64,000 bases of DNA, taken from contig NZ_ATVL01000006.1 of assembly GCF_000420705.1 (NCBI RefSeq), positions 124,001 to 188,000 on the forward strand, given 5' to 3'. The notes beneath the pieces are model-generated. The model did not search any database and was not told the DNA's origin. It worked only from the letters and a program-made list of their open reading frames with translations. Below, in pieces: positions 62,142 through 64,000 of this stretch. Made by a program: the position numbers and the translations under genes. Every line of letters begins with the position of its first letter. Positions within the stretch are counted from its first letter, which is position 1. Origin of the DNA: Hymenobacter norwichensis DSM 15439 (GTDB lineage Bacteria > Bacteroidota > Bacteroidia > Cytophagales > Hymenobacteraceae).

Positions 62142-62813
62142 ATGATCTCCGTACTACGCTTGAAGGAGGTTGAGGGAGTTGAAAGCATACATTATTCTCA
62201 ACAGTCTCCGGTAGTACTGGGGGCTTTTATACGCAAGCGCATATTTGACATTTTATTTGCTGGCTTAGTAGCGGTTTTCCTTTTGAGCTGGCTGGTACCT
62301 CTAATTGCTTTATGCATCAAGCTAGATTCACGAGGACCGGTGTTTTTCCGTCAGTTACGCACTGGCAAGCACGGTAAGCCCTTCTATTGTTTGAAGTTTC
62401 GCAGCATGCGCACCAGCGCCGACGCCGACCGCAAGCAAGCCAGCAAGCACGATAGCCGTATCACGCCGATAGGGGCCTTTCTGCGCAAAACTAGCCTTGA
62501 TGAACTGCCGCAGTTCTTTAATGTGCTGAAAGGTGAAATGTCAGTGGTTGGCCCTCGGCCGCACATGCTGCGGCATACCGAGGATTACGCTCGTATCATC
62601 GACAACTTCATGGACCGGCACCTGATTATGCCTGGAATTACCGGCCTGGCCCAGATATCAGGTTACCGGGGTGAAACCAAAGAAGTGCGCGCCATGGCCA
62701 ATCGGGTACGCGCTGATATTCAATACCTGCGTAACTGGTCGTTTTTTTTGGACCTCAAAATTGTGATGCTCACCGTATTACAAGTTTTCAAGCCTGACGA
62801 GCACACTTTTTAA
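62142..62813 (+). CDS. undecaprenyl-phosphate sugar phosphotransferase (bacterial sugar transferase family)
   Basis: A 223-residue short-form initiating sugar transferase (PF02397), which loads the first sugar-1-phosphate onto undecaprenyl phosphate. One membrane/re-entrant segment (about 30-54, ILFAGLVAVFLLSWLVPLIA) is followed by the catalytic blocks GPVFFRQLRTGKHGKPFYCL, then KFRSM, LRKTSLDELPQFFNVLKGEM, SVVGPRPHM and MPGITGLAQISGYRG. It ends with DLKIVMLTV. It lacks the N-terminal membrane domain of WcaJ. It stands directly before the PID-CTERM and exosortase genes, the usual pairing of exosortases with exopolysaccharide genes. Confidence 0.9.
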   Translation: MISVLRLKEVEGVESIHYSQQSPVVLGAFIRKRIFDILFAGLVAVFLLSWLVPLIALCIKLDSRGPVFFRQLRTGKHGKPFYCLKFRSMRTSADADRKQASKHDSRITPIGAFLRKTSLDELPQFFNVLKGEMSVVGPRPHMLRHTEDYARIIDNFMDRHLIMPGITGLAQISGYRGETKEVRAMANRVRADIQYLRNWSFFLDLKIVMLTVLQVFKPDEHTF

Positions 62814-62915: not shown

Positions 62916-63185
62916 ATGAAGTTTGTTTCCACGCTAGCCCGATTGGGTGCGGTCATGCTATTTGTATTGCAGGCCAACTTACCCGCTCACGCCCTTAACC
63001 CAATCTTCGAAATTCACGTGCATGGTCCTGGCTGCCAGCCTGGGTGCGGCTCTGGTAATAATCCAGCTCCTAGTCCTACTGGCGCTCCTATTGATGGTGG
63101 TGTTTCCTTGTTGCTAGCTGGCGGCGCGGCGTATGCTGTACGTCGTATTCGCAAGGGCAACAAACAGGCTTCTGCGGTTCAATAA
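62916..63185 (+). CDS. PID-CTERM sorting-signal protein (exosortase substrate)
   Basis: An 89-residue protein starting at MKFVSTLARLGAVMLFVLQA; 24 codons of open frame upstream are not used. The signal peptide ends at AHA (26). A short mature stretch contains His34, His36, Cys40 and Cys44. The C-terminal tripartite sorting signal has APID (57-60), a hydrophobic helix GGVSLLLAGGAAYAV (61-75) and the basic tail RRIRK (76-80). This fits the Bacteroidota PID-CTERM type. After both cuts only about 30 residues would remain. An exosortase gene follows directly, so this is the likely dedicated substrate. Confidence 0.8.
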   Translation: MKFVSTLARLGAVMLFVLQANLPAHALNPIFEIHVHGPGCQPGCGSGNNPAPSPTGAPIDGGVSLLLAGGAAYAVRRIRKGNKQASAVQ

Positions 63186-63191
63186 GTAGCA

Positions 63192-63234
63192 TGAGCGAGC
63201 AGGTGGTTGCTACCGCTTGCTCGCTCACCTTTTT
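63192..63234 (+). terminator. intrinsic terminator between the sorting-signal gene and the exosortase gene
   Basis: Arms 63192-63206 and 63213-63227 pair over 15 bases (two G-T wobbles), then CCTTTTTGC. An ATG at 63191 opens the longer exosortase frame but sits at the base of this stem, so the ATG at 63245 is the better start. The element should reduce read-through into the exosortase gene. Confidence 0.7.
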
Positions 63235-63244
63235 GCTTAACGCT

Positions 63245-63784
63245 ATGCCTACTTTGCATCCCCTGTTACGGTTTGCGCTTCTTTCTATTGGCTTCTATTT
63301 AGTGTGGTTTTTCGGTTATGAGCATTACCTCGCCATCGATGGGCGGCTGGATGACGTCCTGACCCACAATATTGCAGCCGTAAGCGCGGCCATTCTTCGC
63401 CTGTTGGGTTTCCCAGCTGCCGTATCACCAACCCAGGCCAACCTGATTTTGCTGGCCAACCAACCTACCGTATTCATTGGAGCCTACTGCGACGGGATGG
63501 TGCTATATGCGCTGTTCAGCGGCTTTGTACTGGCTTTTCCAGGTGGTGGCTGGCATAAGCTCTGGTTTGTGCCACTGGGTGTATTCCTGATTTACAGTGT
63601 CAATATCCTGCGGATTGTGGCCTTATGCCTGAATCATCAGTATTCGCACCAAACTGTTGATTTCAATCACCATTACACCTTTACCTTCATTGTGTACGGG
63701 TTTATTTTCCTGCTCTGGATTTGGTGGGCCACTCGGTTGGCTGCGCGCAATTCAACAAGTCCCGCGCAGCATGCTCATGCGTGA
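63245..63784 (+). CDS. exosortase family protein (XrtX-like)
   Basis: A 179-residue multispanning membrane protease/transpeptidase that cuts C-terminal sorting signals. The exosortase catalytic triad is visible: Cys82 in TVFIGAYCDGMVLYALFSGF, Arg123 in YSVNILRIVALCLN, and histidine 142/143 in VDFNHHYTFTFIVYG. Hydrophobic segments lie at about 9-25, 85-100, 107-130 and 146-165. The start is chosen at 63245, after a terminator hairpin; a start at 63191 would add 18 residues. The gene is preceded by its likely PID-CTERM substrate. Its stop overlaps the start of the next gene. Confidence 0.85.
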   Translation: MPTLHPLLRFALLSIGFYLVWFFGYEHYLAIDGRLDDVLTHNIAAVSAAILRLLGFPAAVSPTQANLILLANQPTVFIGAYCDGMVLYALFSGFVLAFPGGGWHKLWFVPLGVFLIYSVNILRIVALCLNHQYSHQTVDFNHHYTFTFIVYGFIFLLWIWWATRLAARNSTSPAQHAHA

Positions 63785-64000
63785 ATACCAACCAACTGCA
63801 ATGCCGCCGCTATCAGCTTCCTCTATCGATAGAAGCTGGTTGTGGCGCGGTGCGGGTAGCGTGGCCCTGGTAGCATTACTGCTGGTGGCTACTTTGTCTA
63901 ACGAAGCAGTTTACAGCGTGCTCGGAAATTTTTGGCAGCAAATATTCGAGCTGTTGGGCATCAAACAAACTGCTGCAGCCCCCGCCGCGGAAACCTCGGT
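63777..64000 (+). CDS. exosortase-associated membrane protein, N-terminal part (cut by the window end)
   Basis: The frame beginning ATG CGT GAA TAC at 63777 (or ATG at 63771, or 63801) is open to the last base. It overlaps the exosortase stop by 8 bases, which indicates translational coupling. The visible part starts MREYQPTAMPPLSASSIDRS, then shows one hydrophobic helix (GAGSVALVALLLVATL) and a second, weaker one before an alanine/proline-rich stretch. It probably corresponds to the membrane protein found beside XrtX-type exosortases. The function is unknown. Confidence 0.6.
   Translation, partial: MREYQPTAMPPLSASSIDRSWLWRGAGSVALVALLLVATLSNEAVYSVLGNFWQQIFELLGIKQTAAAPAAETS

Follow-up and report, generated by a model that had tools for sequence, protein, structure and literature searches.

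A PID-CTERM microprotein encoded beside exosortase X in Hymenobacter norwichensis carries a lineage-specific His/Cys cluster

In the PEP-CTERM/EpsH system, many proteins of ordinary size carry a signal peptide and a short motif followed by a helix and a basic tail, and PF02397 genes as well as other polysaccharide genes are found near the exosortase (PMC1569441). In Nostoc, cyanoexosortase B has a role in motility and biofilm (PMC12188702). XrtF of Flavobacterium johnsoniae, an exosortase of the Bacteroidota with an adjacent partner gene, is needed together with its associated protein for biofilm formation and surface colonisation (PMC10936215). The PEP-CTERM protein ZepA, which handles zinc in Anabaena, combines an exosortase-type tag with metal-ligand residues in a folded, conserved domain (PMC10957091). 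RemA and RemZ of F. johnsoniae are type A substrates of the type IX secretion system (T9SS), and RemA is a gliding adhesin (PMC10994853). A PID-CTERM tag, exosortase X (XrtX) and an XrtX-associated protein are covered by the curated families NF046080, NF046081 and NF046082; our literature search on PID-CTERM, XrtX, and exosortase together with Hymenobacter found no relevant report.

The window analysed here is a stretch of 64,000 nucleotides from H. norwichensis DSM 15439 (contig NZ_ATVL01000006.1, positions 124,001 to 188,000). At 62916-63185 on the forward strand it contains an open reading frame for a protein of 89 amino acids, while the opposite strand is interrupted by stops. The start at ATG 62916 is backed by the homologue in H. 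telluris BT186, the closest relative of the window (77% identity), which starts at the same position. The N-terminus, MKFVSTLARLGAVMLFVLQANLPAHA, is a predicted Sec signal peptide by charge, hydrophobicity and the AxA rule (residues 1-26, 62916-62993), with the cut between AHA and L. The predicted mature segment of 31 residues follows (residues 27-57, 62994-63086). After it comes PIDGGVSLLLAGGAAYAVRRIRK, then a short tail; this part comprises the PID-CTERM sorting tag, beginning in A57-P58-I59-D60, a hydrophobic helix and a basic tail (residues 58-89, 63087-63182). The tag matches NF046080 over residues 58-80 with 43.5 bits against a cut-off of 26 (E 2e-11). The motif is thus PID, in contrast to PEP in the PEP-CTERM/EpsH system, whereas signal peptide, motif, helix and tail are arranged alike. 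Since our signal-peptide cuts follow the simple AxA rule, a heuristic, and the exosortase cut is placed at or near the PID motif, the mature length of about 31 residues is approximate, and the lengths of single relatives could be wrong by several residues. A sequence-only reading of this DNA had proposed a cut after AHA at residue 26, the segment HVHGPGCQPGC and an APID motif at residues 57-60, and the translation together with the NF046080 match bears this out. No other protein encoded in the 6.0-Mb genome reaches the NF046080 cut-off, nor does any protein in the 14 control genomes.

The gene stands in an operon on the forward strand. Upstream lies the gene of a short-form polyprenyl-phosphate sugar transferase (62142-62813, 223 aa, PF02397 with 227.7 bits), and downstream that of XrtX (63245-63784, 179 aa), which scores 239.1 bits against the NF046081 cut-off of 170. 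The gene of the XrtX-associated membrane protein begins at 63771 and is cut by the window end at 64000, its own end corresponding to window position 64319; the whole protein scores 138.7 bits with NF046082. Tag, enzyme and associated protein are all above the curated cut-offs. XrtX contains C82, R123 and H142, which we take to be the residues named catalytic in exosortases and which are invariant in 40/40 sequences. It is distantly similar to XrtF (TIGR04128 83.3 bits, below the cut-off of 90) but is distinguished from it by its own NCBIfam family and by the PID-CTERM substrate encoded next to it. The AlphaFold model of XrtX is confident (pLDDT 91), and neither sequence nor fold comparison found a counterpart in the PDB. 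With the tag above its cut-off and XrtX encoded by the adjacent gene, the 89-residue protein is very probably an XrtX substrate, in line with the earlier proposal of an exosortase-type substrate.

Further upstream in the window are SDR, hydrolase and malic-enzyme genes, and an efflux operon follows downstream. A His/Cys-containing protein of 153 amino acids and a CusA-type efflux gene, encoded after the XrtX operon and beyond the window end (L075:6519-12737), are shared by the window genome and H. telluris, while all other fetched XrtX loci lack them. The whole XrtX operon is common to these two species.

Between the microprotein gene and XrtX we found a terminator-like hairpin of 16 bp followed by CCTTTTT (63192-63227; MFE -33.2 kcal/mol for 63183-63244, z -5.5). 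Elements of this type lie downstream of 45 of 171 PID genes, compared with 1.3% of shuffled sequences in which base composition alone was preserved. A strong hairpin of this kind with its T-run, placed directly after the substrate gene, suggests that more substrate than enzyme is made.

Among 200 genomes of the family, 106 have XrtX and 106 have PID-CTERM proteins, and both occur together in 103 (Fisher p 4e-49); the pattern reaches many families across the order. Up to 12 PID-CTERM copies are found per genome, far from XrtX. The 12 matches in a distant relative, G422 (L217-L222), include several with near-identical mature parts of 7-9 residues, e.g. QGAPPAT and QPSGPPAT. In G112, a second XrtX copy (L201:4962-5492, +) lacks the conserved Cys, PYNG replacing YCDG, although its score exceeds the XrtX cut-off; neither a PID gene nor an associated gene was found next to this copy. 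Two XrtX-like proteins of about 360 amino acids (L199:4461-5540, -; L200:4950-6023, +) are extended at the C-terminus by a further membrane part, which may stem from a fusion with the XrtX-associated protein, and no PID gene was found near them.

The copies distant from XrtX bear on the idea that the protein stays uncut and, as a small bitopic protein of the membrane, regulates either XrtX or the sugar transferase. Such a role would fit the common operon with XrtX, the tag and tail as the most constrained part of the protein (dN/dS 0.04), and relatives whose mature parts are as short as 7 residues. However, a signal peptide with an AxA site, combined with motif, helix and basic tail, is the layout of a sorted protein, up to 12 copies per genome lie far from XrtX, and the identical tag is present on two proteins of about 800 amino acids. 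We consider an uncut regulator unlikely.

The small size is a trait of the family. Measured from the predicted cut to the PID motif, the mature parts of 171 distinct PID-CTERM microproteins span 7-44 residues with a median of 18, a count which omits four outliers above 60 among the values listed, two of them artefacts of a wrongly assigned start or of joined frames, the other two genuine large proteins. The mature parts consist of 23% Pro and 22% Gly and begin with Gln in 149 of the 171. Nearly the whole family therefore agrees with the earlier view that the mature form is too small for a folded enzyme or adhesin. At 31 residues, the window segment is on the long side and differs from typical members also in its two His and two Cys. 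Compared with the many ordinary-sized proteins of the PEP-CTERM system, this genome thus offers a single substrate of about 31 residues.

Long reading frames behind some of the PID matches were considered as candidates for large substrates, and those examined proved mostly to be upstream read-through with a short real protein. Two large PID-tagged proteins of about 800 amino acids held up. One belongs to the MSEP-CTERM family (L204:3616-6000, -; TIGR04286, 695.7 bits), ends in a PID-CTERM tag and is a candidate for a rare large XrtX substrate; the other, at L205, is similar. Because these two bear the same tag, the substrates of XrtX probably include more than microproteins.

The His/Cys cluster HVHGPGCQPGC (residues 34-44, 63015-63047) is a different matter. 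Two Cys together with two His were found in 2 of the 171 microproteins, those of the window and of H. telluris (HIHGPNCKPGC), which rules the cluster out as a conserved feature of the family. Five microproteins have two Cys, and in the three besides this pair the arrangement is different. The peptide of H. crusticola contains four His but lacks Cys. The invariance of these residues among homologues, proposed earlier as a check, thus did not hold. Long, variable central segments lacking the cluster had been named as the outcome that would speak against the sequence-only reading; the segments are indeed variable and devoid of the cluster, but never long. Judged from these comparisons, the cluster is specific to the lineage and not a property of the family.

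A metal-binding tag, with HxH and CxPGC as ligands, could still be displayed at the surface by XrtX for the metal handling of this lineage. Both His and both Cys are shared by the window and H. telluris, which differ by a dS of about 1.3, and the mature segment has a dN/dS of 0.24. The efflux gene and the His/Cys protein behind the operon, confined to these two species in the fetched set, the four His of H. crusticola and the precedent of ZepA point in the same direction. On the other hand, at a segment identity of 64.5% all four ligands would be retained by chance in about one in six cases, the cluster is present in 2 of 171 relatives, and the efflux operon, about 200 bp away, may be an independent unit. 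Moreover, ZepA has a folded, conserved domain, while the window protein offers 31 residues with a lineage-specific cluster. The ligand residues are not conserved among the homologues, and we regard a metal-binding tag as improbable. Alternatively, the peptides might be cross-linked into a matrix unit through disulfides of the two Cys. The presence of two Cys in an exported peptide this short, and of CxxC in two further relatives, would agree with this, but 166 of the 171 microproteins have fewer than two Cys and no other feature of the locus indicates disulfide chemistry, so that we hold this to be very unlikely.

XrtX systems occur in two genomic settings. The PID genes of most Hymenobacteraceae lie directly after genes of T9SS type A cargos with a RemA/RemZ-like module. 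This module of about 400 amino acids was found in the same-strand gene immediately upstream of 79 of 133 PID genes with flanks, in loci that were gathered by a PID or XrtX match and not by their neighbours, and that include related species and overlapping sources. A T9SS type A tail is recognisable in 73 of the 79 upstream genes, and the median spacing between cargo and PID gene is 77 bp. Two-gene units of this kind occur at L212, L248, L297, L298 and about 75 other loci. The module matches F. johnsoniae RemZ and RemA with E about 1e-32, was not assigned to any named Pfam or NCBIfam family in the scanned proteins, and gives a confident model (pLDDT 91) without a PDB fold match at E <0.001. It is present in 103 of the 200 family genomes, where it co-occurs with PID-CTERM proteins (p 4e-24). 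The T9SS tail in general was considered as the partner, and the RemZ-like module was preferred, being present in 73 of 74 T9SS-tailed upstream proteins. That every RemZ-like cargo has a microprotein is ruled out: 13 genomes have the module without XrtX or PID. Among 40 hand-picked modules without a listed PID, 8 had a same-strand PID downstream and one more had it on the opposite strand (L358).

These gene orders and the co-occurrence might suggest that the microprotein of the window, too, serves a RemA/RemZ-like adhesin. However, at E 1e-10 the module is absent from the window genome and from H. telluris, and the gene upstream in the window encodes the sugar transferase instead of a T9SS cargo. 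The missing module largely refutes such a partnership for the window, and we consider it quite unlikely. It is even less likely, and indeed highly improbable, that the gene is a decaying, functionless remnant of the cargo-linked form. The window genome has a single substrate left, and damaged copies exist in relatives, with a frameshift in G112 and a degraded tag in G181. Against this, the open reading frame is intact, the microprotein gene is under purifying selection, XrtX retains all its catalytic residues and the whole operon is shared with H. telluris.

The second setting is of the exopolysaccharide type. Counting PF02397, Wza-like or Wzc-like genes within flanks reaching about 5-7 kb to each side of XrtX in 91 fetched genomes, we found such genes in 14 of 18 module-free genomes, the window genome included, compared with 2 of 73 genomes that have the module (p 3e-11, a descriptive value, as the contrast was noticed and tested on the same genomes). 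On the XrtX tree, the module-free exopolysaccharide genomes fall into at least two clades, one formed by the family genus g3 and G164 and one around the window; the setting label needs three changes, so that the number of independent cases is small. The peptides here tend towards greater length and a high content of Gly, Asn, Arg or His. Relatives in the clade of the window have Wzi, glycosyltransferase, FkbM and PF02397 genes beside XrtX. A PF02397 gene also precedes the PID gene in H. telluris and does so at two places in G181 (L198:3897-12777, +). There, the unit next to XrtX has a degraded tag (PIGGG), the intact one lies about 7 kb off, and Wzi-type and glycosyltransferase genes are located between them.

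Our preferred reading, to which we assign a probability of roughly 45%, is that the microprotein is the single dedicated substrate of XrtX in an exopolysaccharide-type setting and is joined to an acceptor that is probably glycan-linked. We infer that the precursor of 89 residues would enter the Sec pathway and be cut by signal peptidase after A26, while the C-terminal helix would anchor it in the inner membrane with the PID motif at the outer face. XrtX, through C82, R123 and H142, would cut at or near P58-I59-D60 and join the peptide of about 31 residues, rich in Gly and Pro and probably disordered, to the acceptor, most likely a lipid-linked glycan or an anchor tied to the polysaccharide begun by the neighbouring sugar transferase. 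The product, exposed on the cell surface or in the matrix, would act as a small decoration or linker and not as a folded protein, and the hairpin would keep the substrate above the enzyme. Among the three roles offered by the sequence-only reading, the anchor for a polysaccharide is the best supported, on circumstantial grounds: a sugar transferase gene next to XrtX or the PID gene recurs in the clade of the window, and a second clade has exopolysaccharide genes on the flanks of XrtX. Several points count against the preferred reading: the polysaccharide link of the window itself consists of one PF02397 gene, fuller sets being found beside XrtX in relatives only, the statistic on the settings rests on few clades, and the signal-peptide cut is heuristic. 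It is also conceivable, though we hold it to be doubtful, that XrtX is mainly a sortase for peptides of 7-44 residues that act, depending on the setting, with RemA/RemZ adhesins or with an exopolysaccharide or lipid carrier. Peptides paired gene by gene with RemA/RemZ-type adhesins might then help to retain or present them.

The attachment partner of exosortases has been described as an unidentified compound (PMC7468200). With a natural substrate of about 31 residues, and down to 7 in relatives, the product would be within reach of direct mass spectrometry, and the acceptor could thereby be identified. Exosortase sorting and type IX secretion are surface-sorting systems of the Bacteroidota that are usually studied separately. 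Our literature search found no report of PID-CTERM microproteins paired with RemA/RemZ-like type IX cargos, and their gene-by-gene pairing suggests a link between the two systems.
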